From Methanomassiliicoccales archaeon LGM-RCC1 (lineage in GTDB: Archaea; Thermoplasmatota; Thermoplasmata; Methanomassiliicoccales; Methanomethylophilaceae): 64,000 bases of DNA. Shown one piece after another: positions 18,650-32,785 of this stretch. The notes under the pieces are model-generated. The model did no database searches, was not told the origin of the DNA, and saw only the letters and a program-made list of their open reading frames with translations. Each line of letters begins with the position of its first letter. The first letter of the stretch is position 1. The stretch spans positions 1,364,001 to 1,428,000 of the forward strand of contig CP115555.1 in the NCBI GenBank assembly GCA_030168575.1, written 5' to 3'. The position numbers were made by a program, and so were the translations under genes.

Positions 18650-21277
18650 ATGAGATGCACCAAGAGCATAGACGAACTCTACGAGGAGGTCAGGGACTTC
18701 GATCTGGTCATCACCACCGATGCCGCCCTGGCCACTGCCCTGAACGGCAGGATCGACAGGCCCATAATTGGGCATTTCGCCATGACGCCCAAACAGATAG
18801 CCGCTCACGTGGCATCCAGGGTCATGGGCGTCCCCCTTTACTCCGAACTAAAGGTCATCTCCACTGTATCGGCCGAGACCGGCCTCAGCATGAAGTACGT
18901 CCACAGCGAGATCGAGAATATCAAAGAGATTAGGCAATACACCAAGGAGGTCACAAAACATCTCCATACCGCCGCATCAAGGGCCGTATACGACTCGTAC
19001 GAGGCCATCCCCACGCTGGAGCGCGTGATGGGAGCCTTCGTCCCCGATGACGATGAATTCTACAGGGGCAACAGGGTGGCCGTCATAGCCGAGGAGCTGT
19101 TCAACGACCTGGACAAGCATTTCATCCCCATCAATCACGAATCCATATCCATTTCCAAGGATGATGATTACACCATCAACAGGATCTACGAGATCGGAAA
19201 CGACCGCCAGCTTGCGGAGAATGCCGTGGATCTGATAGATCCGAAGAAGAGCACCGATTACGCCATCGTCCTGAATACCGGCGGGCCCATCGCGGATGCG
19301 GTCAGGGCATCCCTGTACAGAGTGAATATCGGATTCATAAACGCCCTCAACGTCAGGGACCTCTCACAGATTAGGGACTACCTTCAGTTCATAACCCTGG
19401 CCATGGAATTCGATACTATTCGTGTCAAGCACGTCAAAGAGCTGTTCTCCAACTACAACGGATTCTTCAGGAAGGGCAGGGAGGAGTTCCTCCTCTGCAA
19501 GCAGAACGAATCAGACATGACGGAACGGGCGTCTGAGCTGTGGAATGTTATGAAGGCCATCCGCTCGATGACCTACAGGGATGTATGCGACATTGTCTGC
19601 GACAAGAGGGCCAGGATACAGGTCGGCATCCTTATCGAGGACCTGAAGGTGGCGGATACGAGAATCACATCGGTCAATCTGAACGAGGTGAAATACGCAG
19701 TGGACAACGTGAAGGAGCTTCACCACAACGAGGAGATCCCCGAGAACGAGAAGAGAGGTGTGCTCCTGGTCGACTGCAAGAACTCCGTCTACATCGATAG
19801 GCCTGTGGTTATATACCTCGGCATGGAGCAGGAATGGAACATCTCCGTTGTCGGCAAACCCTACATAGATGTCGAGGACGAGACCGATAAGAACGTCGAC
19901 AGGCTGAACGCATTGCTCCAGCAGGGCAATGTGAGGTACTATCTGGTCAACTCCACGAAAGGCGGCAAACCGGCGAGGCCTTGCATGCTGTTCGACCTGA
20001 TCTACAGGAAACCGATGGAATCCTTCTCTATGATGTGCAGGGAACTGGTCAAGGGCAGATGGCATAGGCCCGTGGACGAACTCATACCCGCGGATCCGAC
20101 CAAACAGGGGCCTGCGGACGACGGTTTCTCATCTTACTTCTCCAAATCATCATTCAACAACTACTACTCATGTCCGAGGAAGTACCTCTACGGTTCATTC
20201 CTCACCACACCGGATGAGAAGAGCACCGAGTTCGGTACCCTGATACACTCCTTCGCTGAGTTCTATGTATGCTATCCCGAAGATGTCAGGGAACTCGGTA
20301 TCGACCACTTCGTGTCGCTGATATCCGACAGGTACTCTGGCCTCTCATCCCCGATGATGAAGGACCTCGATGTGGCGAAGATCAAGCAGGCCATGTCGGC
20401 TATCATCGAATACATAGATCATCTGGACGTTAAGGATGCACCCCTTGACGTGAAGATCTCCGACAAGAAAAACCCCAACAGGTTCATGGAGGCTCTGGGG
20501 AAGGAATGGACCAGCTCTGTATGCGAGAGGGACATCAGGTCTGATAAGTTCCCCGTCCACGGCCAGCTGGACCTCGTCTGGGGCGGATCCATTACCGATT
20601 ACAAGACCGGAAAGGCCAGTACACCTGCGGATATCGCCAAGGCCATGACATTCGATTCCAAGGCCAGATACCCCGAGTTCCAAGCACCGATATACCTCTC
20701 GTTGATTCAGCAGGAGGTCGGGAACAAGGGAAGGTTCGACCTGTTCTACGCCATGGATAACGACACGACCGCCGCCACAGGCGAGACCCCGATCACATCC
20801 AACGTAAGATCCGTCATCGTACATGACAAGACCCTGAAGGAGATCGTCGTAAGCAGCAGGCCGTTTAGGGCATTCCTCGCCTGTTATCTCAGCAAGGAAC
20901 TCAGGAACGATGTTGACAGCCTCATGTCCGTCATCCAAGAGTTGGGCGGGGAAGATCCTGCCTATTGGGACCAGGATACGGTTTTGGTTGCAGCCATCAA
21001 CAATCGTCTGGGCATAAAATCATCTACCATCGAACCCGGTCTGAGGAAGATAGCCTCGCTGACCAAGGGAGGTATCCTCAGCTACGGCTCCATCATCGAG
21101 ATGCCGCAGTCCGAGCTGGATTCCAGGATGCAGAGAATCTCAGATATGCATTTGCTGATGATTGAGCAGAGCAAGGTAGAATTTCCGGCCCAACCCAGAC
21201 AAAAATGCAAGGATTGTCAGTATTTCTCGGTGTGTACCAAGGAGGTCATTGATGTCGGAGGTGAGACCGATGAGTGA
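18650..21277 (+). CDS. AddB-like subunit of a helicase-nuclease
   Basis: 875-aa partner of the AddA-like helicase downstream, acting in double-strand break end resection. No Walker A is seen, as in AddB where the helicase fold has lost ATPase function. The C-terminal third is a PD-(D/E)XK nuclease with D641 and D650-Y-K652 (GQLDLVW.. ITDYKTGKAS). The cysteines C508 (YYSCPRKYLY) and C853, C856, C862 (CKDCQYFSVC) match the 4Fe-4S cluster that brackets this nuclease in AddB and Cas4. A TATA-like CTTTATC lies ~30 nt before ATG 18650. The end overlaps addA by 8 nt. AddAB is a bacterial-type system, so horizontal origin is likely. Confidence 0.85.
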   Translation: MRCTKSIDELYEEVRDFDLVITTDAALATALNGRIDRPIIGHFAMTPKQIAAHVASRVMGVPLYSELKVISTVSAETGLSMKYVHSEIENIKEIRQYTKEVTKHLHTAASRAVYDSYEAIPTLERVMGAFVPDDDEFYRGNRVAVIAEELFNDLDKHFIPINHESISISKDDDYTINRIYEIGNDRQLAENAVDLIDPKKSTDYAIVLNTGGPIADAVRASLYRVNIGFINALNVRDLSQIRDYLQFITLAMEFDTIRVKHVKELFSNYNGFFRKGREEFLLCKQNESDMTERASELWNVMKAIRSMTYRDVCDIVCDKRARIQVGILIEDLKVADTRITSVNLNEVKYAVDNVKELHHNEEIPENEKRGVLLVDCKNSVYIDRPVVIYLGMEQEWNISVVGKPYIDVEDETDKNVDRLNALLQQGNVRYYLVNSTKGGKPARPCMLFDLIYRKPMESFSMMCRELVKGRWHRPVDELIPADPTKQGPADDGFSSYFSKSSFNNYYSCPRKYLYGSFLTTPDEKSTEFGTLIHSFAEFYVCYPEDVRELGIDHFVSLISDRYSGLSSPMMKDLDVAKIKQAMSAIIEYIDHLDVKDAPLDVKISDKKNPNRFMEALGKEWTSSVCERDIRSDKFPVHGQLDLVWGGSITDYKTGKASTPADIAKAMTFDSKARYPEFQAPIYLSLIQQEVGNKGRFDLFYAMDNDTTAATGETPITSNVRSVIVHDKTLKEIVVSSRPFRAFLACYLSKELRNDVDSLMSVIQELGGEDPAYWDQDTVLVAAINNRLGIKSSTIEPGLRKIASLTKGGILSYGSIIEMPQSELDSRMQRISDMHLLMIEQSKVEFPAQPRQKCKDCQYFSVCTKEVIDVGGETDE

Positions 21278-24155
21278 GCTGAACCCCTCCCAACAGAGGA
21301 TCGCGGACACCCACGAGGGAATGATTGTCGTCGATGCCGGTCCCGGTACCGGGAAAACGCATACCATAGTGGAGCGCTACATCAGCATGATCTCTAGGCA
21401 GGACATATCCCCGAAGGATGTCCTCCTGCTAACCTTCACGAACAATGCCGCGGCGGAGATGGAAGAACGCATAAAGAGGCGTATGACCGAGAAGGGCATG
21501 GAGAGGGATTCCAAGCTTGTCATGACCAAGACCTTTGACGCATTCTGTCTGTCGATAGTTATGGATTCCCCTGACGAGATCAGCGAATTCTTCGGCTTCA
21601 AGGAGAAGCTTACCAGATCGGCATACATGCAGGAGAACGACTCCCTGAACAGGGACTACTTCCATCGTTTCTTCGACGGTTTCCTTAGCAGCAAGGGTTC
21701 CGACTACGGTGATATTGCCGTCATAGCCAGCGAGAACCCGGAATCCCTGATGGACCTCATCGAGAACCTGATGTCTCGCGGTCTCATCCCACTGAGCAAA
21801 GGATGGTTCGGCAACCACGCCGACCGCATCCTGGAGGGGGATACGGAACAGATACTCGAACTCCTGAGGGCCAACAACTCCGTGACCGCCAGGGGCAAAT
21901 GCCTCAACGTCAACGCGTTGTCCAAGATCGATGACGACCAGGGATACAATGTCCCCGGGAGGAACGACGGCGGCAACATCGACGGATCGTTTCTTGAGGA
22001 ATCCGCAAGTGAGAACAGGACAGAGCTTTACAGGTTCGTCCACGACGTCTATTATGATTACATCAAACAGTCGATCACCGACAACCGCCTGACCTTCCAT
22101 CTGGTGGCCATCCTCGCGTTCACTGTGCTGTACAGACAGAGGAACGTCAGGGAAAGGAACTCCTTCCGCTACCTGATGGTGGATGAATTCCAGGACACCA
22201 ACGCCAACCAGTTGATGATCTCCCTGATGATCCTGAAGGAGCCCAACCTCTGCGTTGTCGGGGATTGGAAGCAGGGGATCTACGGCTTCAGGTACGTCTC
22301 CATAGAGAACATCACCAGATTCGAGGAAAAGACGGTAGAGTACAGGAGATTCCTGAACATAGGCGATAAGAGGGTCGGTTTCTCCATCCCCGAGGCTGTT
22401 AAGCTCCCTCTGGACGTCAACTACCGTTCTTCCCAGGAGATCATAGATACCGCATTCGAGTGCATCTGCCTCCCGGGTTCGAACGATGATGTCATCGGCT
22501 AGGAACAGCTGAAGGAGGACGTCGTCCTCATCCAGGCAGGAAGGGAGGACATCGGTGACTGCAAGGGCATCCGTTTTGTCCAGTCCGAATCGAAGGATGA
22601 TGAGGTCACGGACACAGTTCGTGCCATCAAGGAATACGTTTTCTCCAGGAAATACGCCGTCAGGGACGGTGAGACCTCCAGGAACGTGGGCTTCGGTGAC
22701 ATAGCGGTCATCTGCCGCAAGACCGAGCACTGCAGGATGATTAGGGACGCCTGCGAGGCGGAGGGGATCCCCGCCTATCTCCAGGGGGATGTGCAGATAA
22801 TGTCCACGCGCGAAGGGAAGCTGGCCCTCGCATGGCTGAGATATGTAAACAACGAGCGCGATCCATGGGCTTTCGTCCCCATAATGGCCGATATGGACTA
22901 CACACCTGTGCAGATCAGGTCAGCCGTGAAGAACCCCGATCTGATCCCCAAGATCCTAGTCGAACAGAGGGATGAGCTCTATAAGAAACGCCGCCGCATC
23001 ACGGATCTTCTCACAAGCCTGTTCCAGTTCTACAGCCTGGACAATGATGTCACCCAGGCCATCATTTCGACCGTGTCTTCCGTGCACAGGGGCACCCTGC
23101 TCACGATCTCCGATGTCATAAGGATAATCGACGACGACATCGAGAATGGTTCCACATATCCGGTCGAGAATCTCATCGACACCAAAGCGGTCACTATCAT
23201 GACCATGCACAAATCCAAGGGTCTGGAGTTCCCAGTTGTCATCACCCCGTTCATAGATTCCGGCGTGATGCCCAGCACCAACAGGGATTCGGGAACGTTC
23301 TTCTTCGACGACACCCTCGGAGTCCGCTGCGGTAAGGAGATAGGCCGTTTCGGCGACTACTCGAAGATCTGCATAAACTGGAGGACCAGGCTGGCCAAAT
23401 CCGTCCTCTCCATGGACTACAGCGAGGAGAGGAGACTGATGTTCGTCGCACTCTCCAGGGCGAAGCAGTACGAGACCGTAATCTGCGGACCCAAACCCTC
23501 CAAGTTCATAGAAGGGCTCATGGAAGACGGATTCTCCGCCATCCCCAATGTGGAATACGATCCGGATGTTCTAAGAGAGCAGCTCATCGACAGACCAGAC
23601 GTGCCCGACTACCCCTCCAGACGCCAAAAAATAGGTGTGCACGAGATCCTGAACTTCAATGACGGGGACGGGACATCCAACACTATGGGGTCCGACGAGG
23701 TCGGAGGCAAGGGCATGGAGTACGGAACCGAGGTCCACAAGATAGCAGAGCTGATGGCGGAGGGCAAGCCCGTTGACGAGAGCTATCCGGAGGTGGAGCA
23801 GATACGCAAGGTCCTGGCCGGCGTTTCCGATGCCGATATCAAGTACACCGAGATCGATTGCGGTCTCCCCATAGACGACCTGAACGCCACCCTTAGAGGG
23901 GTGATAGATCTGCTGGTCCTGTATCCGGATCGTATGGAGGTCCACGACTACAAGACCGACGTATCGGACAGGTTCGAGGAGGAGTACACCATTCAGCTTT
24001 CCGTCTACGCGTACGCTGTGCAAGGATTCTACAACAAGCCCGTCGACTGCTACATCGACTATGTGTCCAGAGGCATCTTCAAGAAGATAGAGCCCGTGGA
24101 TATGTCGGTAATCAAGAAACGTGTACTGGATTACGCGGGTGAACTTAATAAATGA
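21270..24155 (+). CDS. AddA-like UvrD-family helicase-nuclease with in-frame UAG codon
   Basis: 961-aa protein if the amber codon at 22500-22502 (codon 411) is read. Before it are the Q-motif (LNPSQQRIA), Walker A (GPGTGKT, residues 24-30), motif II MVDEFQDT (D305), motif III VGDWKQGIYGFR and motif IV NYRSSQEII. After it, in the same frame, are IAVICRKTEHCR, motif V TMHKSKGLEFPVV, motif VI RRLMFVALSRAK and a PD-(D/E)XK nuclease (GVIDLLV..VHDYKTD). No frameshift or other stop is present. ATG 21270 has a strong Shine-Dalgarno GGAGGTGA at 21257-21264. Termination at UAG would leave a useless half, so readthrough, probably with pyrrolysine, is inferred; a recent nonsense mutation is the alternative. 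Confidence 0.85.
22500..22502 (+). other. In-frame amber codon in addA (putative pyrrolysine)
   Basis: TAG preceded by DDVIG and followed without frame change by EQLKEDVVLIQ, between helicase motifs IV and V. The annotated gene ends in TGA. See the AddA entry for the domains on both sides. Confidence 0.7.
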
Positions 24156-24173: not shown

Positions 24174-26801
24174 ATGGAAGGGCTGACTTCGAAAGAAGTT
24201 GACGAGAGGATAAAGAACGGTCAGATGAACAATGCCGATATCAAGACCAGCAGGTCTTACACCGACATCATAGTCAAGAACATCGTCACACCCTTCAACA
24301 TAATACTCTTCATCGTAGGAGCGGCGCTGATAGTCCTCGAGAACTACACCAGCGCCATATCCGCCACCGGAATCATCACGGTCAACATCATAATCTCCAC
24401 CATACAGGAGATCCGTGCCAAACGCCGTCTGGACAAGATATCCCTCCTGACCCGTCCCAAGGTTACGGTCATCCGCAACGGCGGCGAGGTCGTCATCGAC
24501 CAGAAGGACATCGTGAAGGACGATCTGATCAAGATCGCCGCAGGGGAGCAGGCACTGGTTGACGGCGAACTGATATACTGCAGGTCCATGGAGATGGACG
24601 AATCCCTGCTCACGGGAGAGTCCAGCACCGTAAAGAAAAACGTGGGGGACACGATCTATTCGGGATCTGTCTGCGTCACTGGTGAGGCGAAGTATGTCGT
24701 AACGGCATTCGGAAACGAATCATACGCATCCCAGATGCTGAACAGCGCCAAGAAGTTCACATCCAAGAAGACCCCCCTCCAGATGGAGACGGGCACTATA
24801 ACCACCGTGCTGATGGTCGTAGCCTTCTTCCTGCTATTCCTTTCGATCATATTCGAGGTGATCCACGGGCTGAACATCTTCGATATAGAGGATTTCGAGA
24901 GCATCCTTGAGATCCTTGTCCTTTGTCTGGATATCGTGCCCATCGCTTTGTTCCTCCTGATCACCCTCACCTACATGATAGCCGCGATCAGGATGGCGGA
25001 TACCGGTGTGCTCCTTCAGAGATTCAACTCCGTTGAGTCACTCAGCCATGTGGAAGTTGTCTGCATGGACAAGACCGGGACCATAACGACCAACAACCTC
25101 CTCTATGAATCCGCCACCAACTTCGTGGACGATTCCGAGATGGAGCACATGGTCCGCCTATTCTCCAACGCCACTGGCAGCAAGAACAGAACGATCAGGA
25201 CCCTCATTGATAAGTTCGGAGAGACCGAGACAGAACTAATCGAAGAGATACAGTTCTCTTCGGCCAGAAAATACAGCGCGGTCAAGGTCAGGGACGAGGG
25301 CATTATTTACACATTGTACTCTGGAGCATGGAATGTCCTGCGCCCGCACTGTTCCGACGCAGACAAGATCGATTCCATCATTCAGGAAGAATCCTCCAAG
25401 GGGTTCAGGACACTGGTGCTCTGCAGATCCGAGGACCTTCCGCTCAACAAGGGCGATGATTACGTCATCAACCCTCTCACTCCCGTATCCGTCATCACGA
25501 TAAGGGATGAGGTCAGGCCCGATTGCAGGGAGTCCATCGATGTGTTCATTCAGAACGGCATGGACATCAAGGTCATCTCGGGTGACGATCCGGTAACGGT
25601 CGATGCACTGTTCAAGATCGCGGACATCCCCGGAGAGAGGAACATAATCTCTGGTCCCGAGCTTGAGGCCCTTCCGGATTCCGAATTGGACGAGGTCGTC
25701 CTCAGGACTAACATCTTCGGAAGGATGAAACCTGAGAACAAGGAGAAGGTCATCGAGGTTCTCAAGCGCAACAGCAAGTACGTCGCGATGATAGGTGACG
25801 GGGTCAATGACGTCAAACCCATCAAATCCGCCCAGGTCGGTATAGCTTTGGAATCCGGTTCCGGTGCCGCCAGGGGAGTCGCCGACATGATCCTGGTGGA
25901 TGACAACTTCTCAGCACTACCGAAGGCTCTGGTCGAGGGAAGGAGGACGATCTCTGGAATCAGGGACATCCTCAAGGTCTACATCTCAAGGAACTTCGCC
26001 CTTGCTATAATGTTCGCCTTGGTGTTCTTCGTGTTCGGCAGGATGCCCATGCTCCCCATCCAGAATATGTTCTACGCATTCGTGGCCGTCACGGTCATCG
26101 CATTCTTCATGACCGTTTTCGCGACCCCAGACAAGAACGATGAGCTTATCCTGCCAGGCGTTTTGCGTTTCGCCATACCCTCAGCCATCATCATAGGTGT
26201 CATGGGCGTGATCATCTACGCCCTCACATGGAATATGATGTACGATAATCCCGATCTTATGGATTTCAGCTATCTTCAGGAGTACGCCGACAGACTGGGC
26301 ATATCGCTTTCTCAGTTCGTCAATTATTTCCTGGTATCGATGGATTACGAATATCCATCGGCCTCCGCCGTAGCAGATATAGTTGCAAGGTCCAGCATGG
26401 TGGAGTTCGCTGCCATCGTAGGTGCCCTTCAGCTGCTCATCGTCTGTCCCCGTTTCAAGTTCCTGTCGGTGGACGGCAACGTCAACAAGAAGATACTGCC
26501 CATCTTCCTGGTGGTCTTCGTCCTCGGACTGGTATGCATAATGTTCGCTTTCTTCCCGTGGTTCGCAGCGGTCATCGGAATGGCCCGTCTCCCCAGCGAT
26601 TGCGCGATGCTGGTCGTAGCCGCGGTGGCGATAGCGTTCTTCCTGATCCTGATATGTGTGAAGAGGAACATCATGCACAGACCGGTGGAGATGTTCGAGA
26701 AGTGGTATCTCAACAGGCTCGACAAAGAGTACACCAAGGGAGACGTTGTGAATGAGACGAACCTCTCCGAGAAGATCAAGGACGATATGAGCCGTCTTTG
26801 A
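24174..26801 (+). CDS. HAD-family P-type cation-transporting ATPase
   Basis: 875-aa membrane ATPase. It has an actuator block (MDESLLTGESS), the phosphorylation motif DKTGTIT with D299, the hinge motif IGDGVNDVKPIKSAQVGIAL and about ten membrane helices. The helix-4 region reads DIVPIALFLLITLTYM rather than the PEGL motif of calcium and proton pumps, and there is no N-terminal metal-binding domain, so it is not a heavy-metal CPx pump. The layout resembles bacterial CtpE-like pumps; the ion is not assignable from sequence. It begins 18 nt after addA. The C-terminal soluble tail carries EKWYLNRLDKEYTKGD. Convergent 3' overlap with the exonuclease gene (26 nt). Confidence 0.88.
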   Translation: MEGLTSKEVDERIKNGQMNNADIKTSRSYTDIIVKNIVTPFNIILFIVGAALIVLENYTSAISATGIITVNIIISTIQEIRAKRRLDKISLLTRPKVTVIRNGGEVVIDQKDIVKDDLIKIAAGEQALVDGELIYCRSMEMDESLLTGESSTVKKNVGDTIYSGSVCVTGEAKYVVTAFGNESYASQMLNSAKKFTSKKTPLQMETGTITTVLMVVAFFLLFLSIIFEVIHGLNIFDIEDFESILEILVLCLDIVPIALFLLITLTYMIAAIRMADTGVLLQRFNSVESLSHVEVVCMDKTGTITTNNLLYESATNFVDDSEMEHMVRLFSNATGSKNRTIRTLIDKFGETETELIEEIQFSSARKYSAVKVRDEGIIYTLYSGAWNVLRPHCSDADKIDSIIQEESSKGFRTLVLCRSEDLPLNKGDDYVINPLTPVSVITIRDEVRPDCRESIDVFIQNGMDIKVISGDDPVTVDALFKIADIPGERNIISGPELEALPDSELDEVVLRTNIFGRMKPENKEKVIEVLKRNSKYVAMIGDGVNDVKPIKSAQVGIALESGSGAARGVADMILVDDNFSALPKALVEGRRTISGIRDILKVYISRNFALAIMFALVFFVFGRMPMLPIQNMFYAFVAVTVIAFFMTVFATPDKNDELILPGVLRFAIPSAIIIGVMGVIIYALTWNMMYDNPDLMDFSYLQEYADRLGISLSQFVNYFLVSMDYEYPSASAVADIVARSSMVEFAAIVGALQLLIVCPRFKFLSVDGNVNKKILPIFLVVFVLGLVCIMFAFFPWFAAVIGMARLPSDCAMLVVAAVAIAFFLILICVKRNIMHRPVEMFEKWYLNRLDKEYTKGDVVNETNLSEKIKDDMSRL

Positions 26802-30845: not shown

Positions 30846-32291
30846 TCAGAAATCGAAAAGGCTGGCCTGATTCTTCTTGCGATCGTTGGATTGCTAGGCG
30901 GATTTCTCCTCGACAGGTGCAGGCTCGGGTACAGGTTCGGCCTTCTTTGGTTTCGCCTTCTTGATTGGGGCCTCTTTGACCTCAGGGACAGAATCTGCTT
31001 CGATAGCAGCGAATACGGCCTTTACTTCCTTGGAATCCGGTTTCTTCCCCAGAAGGAATCCGAGTTCCTCCGGTTCCAGCATGAGTTCCTTTGTAACTAT
31101 GATCCTGAGATCAGAATCATTTGCGATCATCTGCTTCAGATAGGGCAGGATGTCCAGATCAGCACGCCTTGTAGAAGTGTGTAGATAGATAGCAAGCTTG
31201 AGGTCAATGCTCTTCCTGAGAGCGCGGACGCCTTTGCTCCTGGACATCTTCATCAGATATGATGGGAAATGAAGACGGTCGTGTGAGAACCTGTTGCTCA
31301 TACGGGCCGAGTTGACCCCAGCAGTCATAGTATCGCTGGCGTAGGACCAGAAGCCGAAGTACTGCCTCCTCTGAACCCTGCCGAGATAGATGTCGGCACG
31401 TGAGAGCTTCTCGTATCCGCGGACGAGATCTCCCTTGTCCAGATACTCGTAAGGAAGGTTCTCATCTACCCAAAGCTCCAACTCTGGCGGATCGGTATCC
31501 ACATCCCTTAAGAGATTGCGGGACTTCATCGCGTCGTTCGATCTGAATATAGCGGACATGAGGGCGTACATGTCGTTGCGCTTGTCACGGGTGGAGAGGT
31601 CCTCGGCCATCGCAGCAGTCACGTGTGTCTGGCCGAGCGATAGCGCCTCCAGATTACGGACGGCTGCACGCATATCCCCGTTGGCCTTCTCAGCGATCAT
31701 CGTCATTGCATCGGGATCTACTTCGATACCCTCTGCCTCGGCGATCTTGTATAGTGCCTTGGCCATGGAAACGGCCTTGGGCTTTTGGAAAGTTATCTGG
31801 AGCGTATCGGTCTTGGCTGCGCTGCATTTGCGTGACAGCTCGTAGTAATCGTTCACTATGAGTATGACCGGTTGGAGCGTCTCCTTGATCAACTTGGTGA
31901 TGACGGGGATCGCGCCCCTGTCCACATTGCCGAAGAAGTTATCGGCCTCGTCCAGGATGATCAGCTTGCGCTGCCCTTTGCCCGTATCGAGGTATTCACC
32001 CGAATCAGAGAAGGTATTGAACTTGGATCCGCGAATGGCGATGTTCTCGATGGCATCCCCCGTACGCTGGTCCGAAGCGTTCATCTCCACAACTGACCAG
32101 CCCATATCCATGGCCAATGCTTCCGCGGAAGTGGTCTTCCCTATTCCCGGAGTGCCTATCAGCACGACCGCCCTTTTCTCTGGTATGCCTTTTTCCCAGG
32201 ACTCGGCCCAGAGCCTCAACGAGCTCACGGCTCCTGGATTGCCTATGACGTCATCGAGTGTCTTAGGACGGTACTTCTCTGTCCAGTCCAT
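30846..32291 (-). CDS. rfcL: Replication factor C large subunit RfcL with in-frame UAG before PIP box
   Basis: Clamp-loader large subunit that opens PCNA at primer ends. It has an N-terminal MDWTEKYRPKTLDDVIGNP, Walker A GTPGIGKTT (46-54), Walker B LIILDEADNF and the SRC-equivalent region of large subunits. The frame meets TAG at 30894-30896 (codon 466) after a Lys/Pro/Glu-rich tail, but continues for 15 codons, QSNDRKKNQASLFDF, to a TGA at 30846-30848. QASLFDF is a canonical PCNA-interaction (PIP) motif, normally at the RfcL C-terminus. Readthrough of UAG, probably as pyrrolysine, would give 481 aa. ATG 32291 overlaps the stop of the zinc-ribbon gene (TGATG). The taw1 gene follows directly. 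Confidence 0.92.
30894..30896 (-). other. In-frame amber codon in rfcL (putative pyrrolysine)
   Basis: TAG follows PVEEKSA and is followed in frame by QSNDRKKNQASLFDF and TGA. The downstream peptide ends in a PIP box, so it is likely translated. Confidence 0.75.
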
Positions 32292-32785
32292 CACGACTCA
32301 CCTCTCAGAACGGCGTTGTAGACATCCATTATGGACAACAGGAAGATGAACATCTCTACGACTATCAGCAGCATGTAGGAGGACGAAGTCGTCATTAGAT
32401 TAGGGGCCAGATAGTATAGCATTATCGTGGCGCAGATGTAGAAGAAGGCCTTTGACCATCTCTTCATCACTATCTGTCCCAATCCGAACACGTTGAAGAA
32501 TCCCGGTACAATGGCCAAGAACAAAGCTATGTAATCCATTGCTCCGAACTTCTTGGGTCTGGTGAAGCCCATGTCTATAGAGGCGATATCCGCAGGCTCT
32601 CCGCATTTTGGACATGTCTCCAGTCCTCTGGGGACAGGCGAGTTGCAATTCTTGCAGTAAGGAACGTTGATGATGTTACCATCATCGTTAATCATAAGAG
32701 AATCCTTGACCAAGGCACCGCATACGTAACAGAACTCCTGACCTTCAGGGATCTCGTTTCCACATCCGATGCACACATGCCTCAC
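32291..32785 (-). CDS. Double zinc-ribbon membrane protein
   Basis: 164-aa protein with two zinc ribbons (CIGCG..EFCYVCG and YCKNCNSPV..ETCPKCG) followed by three membrane helices starting at MDYIALFLAIVPGFFNVFGL. That block is shared with the protein at 17584-18012. Translation starts at GTG 32785, set by a strong Shine-Dalgarno GGAGGTGA about 6 nt upstream. Its stop overlaps the rfcL start (TGATG), so the two genes are coupled. Function unknown; linkage with rfcL and taw1 gives no clear hint. Confidence 0.8.
   Translation of the reverse strand: MRHVCIGCGNEIPEGQEFCYVCGALVKDSLMINDDGNIINVPYCKNCNSPVPRGLETCPKCGEPADIASIDMGFTRPKKFGAMDYIALFLAIVPGFFNVFGLGQIVMKRWSKAFFYICATIMLYYLAPNLMTTSSSYMLLIVVEMFIFLLSIMDVYNAVLRGES

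Follow-up and report, generated by a model that had tools for sequence, protein, structure and literature searches.

The in-frame UAG codon in the gene for an AddA/RecB-like helicase-nuclease of Methanomassiliicoccales archaeon LGM-RCC1, a gut-type methanogen, is very probably a sense codon, by which a full-length protein with pyrrolysine, the rare 22nd amino acid, at residue 411 would be produced. The gene lies in a window of 64,000 nucleotides (the whole stretch of DNA that was analysed) within the single 1,664,211-base contig of the source genome, here designated G000. The frame is intact on both sides of the TAG, the codon is found in other genomes, selection is seen past it, the pyrrolysine machinery is present and TAG stops are rare. 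From these sequences we infer that the inserted residue is pyrrolysine, that UAG is decoded efficiently and that the residue is nearly neutral. What appears as readthrough would most likely be ordinary pyrrolysine decoding of UAG, and the simplest account is that UAG serves as an ordinary, though rare, sense codon in the genus.

Table 1. Features of the helicase-nuclease gene and its neighbours (window positions)
Feature	Position	Strand	Remark
AddA/RecB-like SF1 helicase with C-terminal PD-(D/E)XK nuclease	21270..24155	+	961 codons, TAG counted as residue
In-frame TAG, proposed pyrrolysine codon	22500..22502	+	residue 411 from ATG 21270 (418 of P0001)
GGAGGTGA, probable ribosome binding site of helicase gene	21258..21265	+	from sequence reading
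Motif I (AGPGTGKT)	21336..21359	+	
Motif II (DEFQDT)	22182..22199	+	
Motif III (GDWKQGIYGFR)	22260..22292	+	
Motif IV (NYRSS)	22419..22433	+	shortly 5' of TAG
Motif V (VTIMTMHKSKGLE region)	23187..23228	+	3' of TAG
Motif VI (EERRLMFVALSRAK region)	23424..23465	+	3' of TAG
PD-(D/E)XK nuclease core (HDYKTD)	23943..23960	+	
PD-(D/E)XK nuclease with Cas4-like end, upstream partner	18650..21277	+	overlaps helicase start; AddB-like by position and domain
P-type ATPase, downstream neighbour	24174..26801	+	orthology anchor; order conserved

Translation of the helicase is likely to start at ATG 21270, with GGAGGTGA just upstream. Between this codon and the TGA at 24153-24155 the TAG is the sole stop. 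It is positioned 23 residues past motif IV and about 230 ahead of motif V, in agreement with the initial annotation, which had placed an in-frame amber codon between these motifs. The same annotation had described one frame carrying all motifs and a C-terminal nuclease, free of any other stop, indel or motif loss, and this is borne out: UvrD_N, UvrD_C and PDDEXK_1 of Pfam all match the read-through protein, and a survey of motif residues in 35 relatives found K29, D305, E306, Q335, R386, G651, R730, D880, D893 and K895 to be invariant on both sides of the TAG. Motifs V and VI and the nuclease are all encoded 3' of the TAG and hence, as had been pointed out, would be absent from a truncated product. 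A structure predicted from the window and locus sequences had a mean pLDDT of 86 and placed the TAG residue where a short helix begins, past the loop that follows motif IV. No local RNA structure or PYLIS-type element was found at the helicase TAG (z 0.18). This does not count against its assignment to the pyrrolysine class, since the PYLIS element is missing from many Pyl genes and is unnecessary for insertion (PMC9499178).

The initial annotation had called the helicase AddA-type. Architecture and fold agree with this name but the curated AddA models do not: the protein scores 145.7 bits against the AddA equivalog TIGR02785, whose curated cut-off is 707.65. With SF1 motifs I-VI and a C-terminal PD-(D/E)XK domain it belongs to the AddA/RecB-like helicase-nucleases in the broad sense, and the best match of its model among solved structures was chain A of AddAB (4cei_A, E 3.9e-38, TM about 0.5 over the whole length). 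AddA of AddAB and RecB of RecBCD likewise combine an SF1 helicase with a C-terminal PD-(D/E)XK nuclease and have an AddB-like gene alongside, but the G000 protein is shorter (961 aa) and falls far below the curated score cut-offs for AddA and RecB. The helicase-nuclease is thus AddA/RecB-like by architecture, partner gene and fold, but the curated models do not class it as AddA proper. Judging by position and domain, the nuclease encoded upstream is AddB-like and a putative partner of the helicase. In the close relatives examined, the nuclease gene is again followed by the helicase gene and then by that of the P-type ATPase. G036 has another, less closely related AddB/helicase pair as well, whose helicase has two in-frame TAGs elsewhere (L125:4112-7069).

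A search for pylT and pylS had been suggested as a check on the initial annotation. Both were found, together with pylB, pylC and pylD, in one run at genome positions 1290439-1294378, about 70 kb upstream of the window. PylS scored 259 bits against an NCBIfam cut-off of 178 bits, and PylB, PylC and PylD all exceeded theirs. Within the genus, PylS was above the cut-off in 27 of 31 genomes and partial in others. Beside the pyl genes are two genes for MtmB, the monomethylamine methyltransferase, each with its own in-frame TAG; monomethylamine methyltransferases are classical pyrrolysine proteins. The pylT-like gene (genome 1290439-1290509) was recognised by reading and folding of the sequence. 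It lies directly ahead of pylS, has a CUA anticodon and adopts a tRNA fold in which the anticodon stem has six pairs, no spacer parts the acceptor and D stems, and the D loop has four bases. These features match those reported for the order, except that the anticodon stem is broken there (PMC3941956). An Rfam search of the pyl region gave no match, nor did a pattern for the tRNA-Pyl of M. alvus. The pylTSBCD cluster of G000 is uninterrupted (L005:7440-11379), whereas pylB of Ca. M. alvus has been reported about 0.7 Mb away (PMC3941956).

Alignment with relatives, another check that had been proposed, was unambiguous around the site. TAG stands at the same helicase codon in G026 (a SIG9 MAG of the same species, 97% identical), G036 (63%) and G068 (62%), while other relatives have assorted sense codons, with 12 kinds of residue among 26 relatives. 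The TAG carriers do not form one clade in the helicase tree or in trees that include neighbouring genes (AU p 0.003 and 0.0001). Consequently, either the TAG was retained on several long branches while other lineages lost it, or it arose repeatedly. Nested among the carriers are G069, G065 and G064 with GTG, GAG and GAA, respectively, and since these specify valine or glutamate, residue 411 is probably of little importance. The G068 orthologue (L155) has a second TAG, at codon 913, in place of an almost invariant alanine by the nuclease motif QLSVYA, where a neutral pyrrolysine would be less expected.

Downstream of the TAG, G000 and G026 differ by 84 synonymous and 29 amino-acid changes (dN/dS 0.086), a low ratio that may partly reflect time spent in a TAG-less allele because of downstream recombination between the two. 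With this caveat, the comparison supports continued purifying selection 3' of the TAG. Near helicase codon 480, synonymous divergence between the two genomes (L014; window 22690-24155) jumps from about 2.5% to 31%, and the stretch 3' of this codon has probably recombined in one lineage.

TAG stops were surveyed in 501 kb of G000 (about 30% of the genome), where a simple codon-usage gene finder retained 417 genes. Eight of these meet a TAG. In four, namely the helicase, the two MtmB genes and a TnpB-like transposase gene, the coding sequence extends a further 258-550 codons, and the other four reach a TGA within 3-24 codons. The likely TAG stops in this 30% sample thus number 4 in 413 genes, each with a TGA within 24 codons, and true TAG stops would account for about 1% of genes at most. 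TAG stops are very few in Ca. M. alvus too, and its published share of 1.6% agrees with the G000 estimate (PMC4153887). No TAG-ended gene with a short tail was found in the 408 kb of G036 examined; TAG occurs there inside aconitase, a phosphomannomutase-like gene, a Na/Pi cotransporter and others.

We propose that the genome's own pylTSBCD set makes tRNA-Pyl (CUA) and loads it, and that the charged tRNA would read the UAG and insert pyrrolysine at residue 411, giving one full-length helicase-nuclease. Most likely the TAG originated by a single-base substitution within a variable loop of the helicase, a place at which residue 411 would matter little; the ancestral codon may have been GAG, for glutamate. 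The TAG would persist since UAG is decoded with efficiency and seldom serves as a stop.

It might be thought that a stop in mid-gene, at a site where other genomes have a sense codon, marks a pseudogene in early decay, or that it is a mere sequencing or assembly error, as single base changes can be. Both are very unlikely because the same TAG is present in G026, G036 and G068. For an error the chance is negligible: G026 is an independent genome, two other species have the same codon, and the sequencing correction that the initial annotation had allowed for is not to be expected. Decay, very unlikely as stated, is at odds with the lack of any further stop or frameshift, with the preserved motif residues, with the presence of this TAG in three species that have long evolved independently and with selection that persists 3' of the TAG. 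The earlier preference for readthrough over decay is upheld by this selection, by the TAG in other genomes and by the pyl set. A split gene, in which one protein would stop at the TAG and translation of the second half would be initiated anew, could draw on the earliest in-frame starts 3' of the TAG, GTG 22686 and ATG 22737. On reading the sequence no clear Shine-Dalgarno sequence was seen at either, and the second half had already been judged to have no convincing start. Moreover, the stretch from 22503 to 22686 would go unused, yet it is open and alignable in relatives; the cut would fall within the helicase core; and the whole protein is a single stop-free frame in most relatives of the family. 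We regard a split gene as highly improbable.

The remaining alternative also involves pyrrolysine decoding and differs from our explanation only in that the codon is not near-neutral. The TAG would have been selected, either because pyrrolysine in the loop is functional or because UAG ties the amount of full-length enzyme to pyrrolysine supply and growth on methylamines. The TAG does recur at one column in three species that are well separated and form no clade. These species share a codon at only 2 of 107 equally variable columns, one being the TAG column, a figure that is suggestive but comes from a helicase chosen for its TAG. Against selection, the sense codons of the nested G069, G065 and G064 indicate that the residue is dispensable, species also share TAG columns in other genes (that of the Na/Pi cotransporter spans six species) and the site gave no RNA signal. 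We consider a selected TAG unlikely. Its more specific form, in which UAG was kept or regained by selection and the supply of pyrrolysine governs how much of a double-strand-break repair enzyme is made or how active it is, is if anything less likely; if true, it would link methylamine metabolism to DNA repair.

Near-neutral pyrrolysine decoding would mean that the helicase TAG marks no broken gene and involves no novel mechanism; most likely it extends a habit known in these archaea. Sixteen pyrrolysine proteins other than methyltransferases have been predicted in Ca. M. alvus (PMC4153887), 46 genes with an in-frame amber, methylamine genes included, in ISO4-H5 (PMC5011839), and 25 Pyl proteins, 9 of them methyltransferases, in ISO4-G1 (PMC4824259). 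As in the helicase, the extra Pyl genes of Methanomassiliicoccales have an in-frame TAG, homologues that are mostly TAG-free and pylTSBCD in the genome. By its sequence the helicase-nuclease adds a further candidate to these predicted genes. The published table for Ca. M. alvus has no AddA/RecB-like helicase-nuclease of such size (PMC4153887); the ISO4-G1 orthologue may be among the 25 Pyl proteins of that genome, unlisted in the text of the paper. In MtmB, MtbB and MttB, UAG is likewise decoded as pyrrolysine, but in these methyltransferases the residue has a catalytic role and the codon characterises the family, whereas the helicase TAG stands in a variable column and outside the helicase and nuclease motifs. 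Another parallel is the tRNA-His guanylyltransferase of Methanosarcina, likewise an enzyme that contains pyrrolysine without requiring it, for which neutral evolution was suggested, according to the account of Heinemann (2009) given in PMC4153887. It is a different enzyme, and the helicase TAG is common to three species that do not form a clade. A limited literature search found no report on the full archaeal pyrrolysine code. Such a report is said to have appeared in Science in about 2025.

One practical consequence is that, in such methanogens, gene callers using the standard code would break this DNA-repair enzyme into two pieces. Together, the helicase, the aconitase and the phosphate transporter suggest that UAG is a general sense codon in the genus. 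Its TAG sites would be of all ages (within-species, patchy and clade-wide), and it should be a good system for the study of how a stop codon turns into a sense codon. In age the helicase TAG stands between those of the aconitase and the Na/Pi cotransporter.

Orthologues were checked for few of the TAG genes other than the helicase. In the aconitase gene of G000 (L216; G000:C1:1206211-1208844), an in-frame TAG takes the place of a conserved lysine codon, which is AAG in G026; since both genomes belong to the same species, this TAG is polymorphic within it. The TAG of the G036 aconitase is at a different position. In the Na/Pi cotransporter, which has a PhoU domain, TAG occupies an identical column in six species of the genus (L209-L214, L203:3787-5562), and GAG stands there in the outgroup G061. 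This column is a candidate for a long-kept pyrrolysine site. A TnpB/IS605-type gene has an in-frame TAG at codon 123 (L007:10438-11772), and orthologues of a TetR gene with a TAG were too few for a useful comparison. A Replication factor C-like AAA gene on the minus strand of the window (30894-32294) ends in TAG with a TGA 15 codons further; the TAG may be a stop backed up by the TGA, or it may lead into a short pyrrolysine-containing tail. Finally, in G000 and G026 only a TAG parts a CbiZ gene from a gene of about 180 residues, and in G068 the two form a single open frame (L141:1645-3411). The TAG-joined frame was rejected as one gene on the grounds that most relatives have two adjacent genes, and this TAG may either act as a stop or join the two proteins into one.
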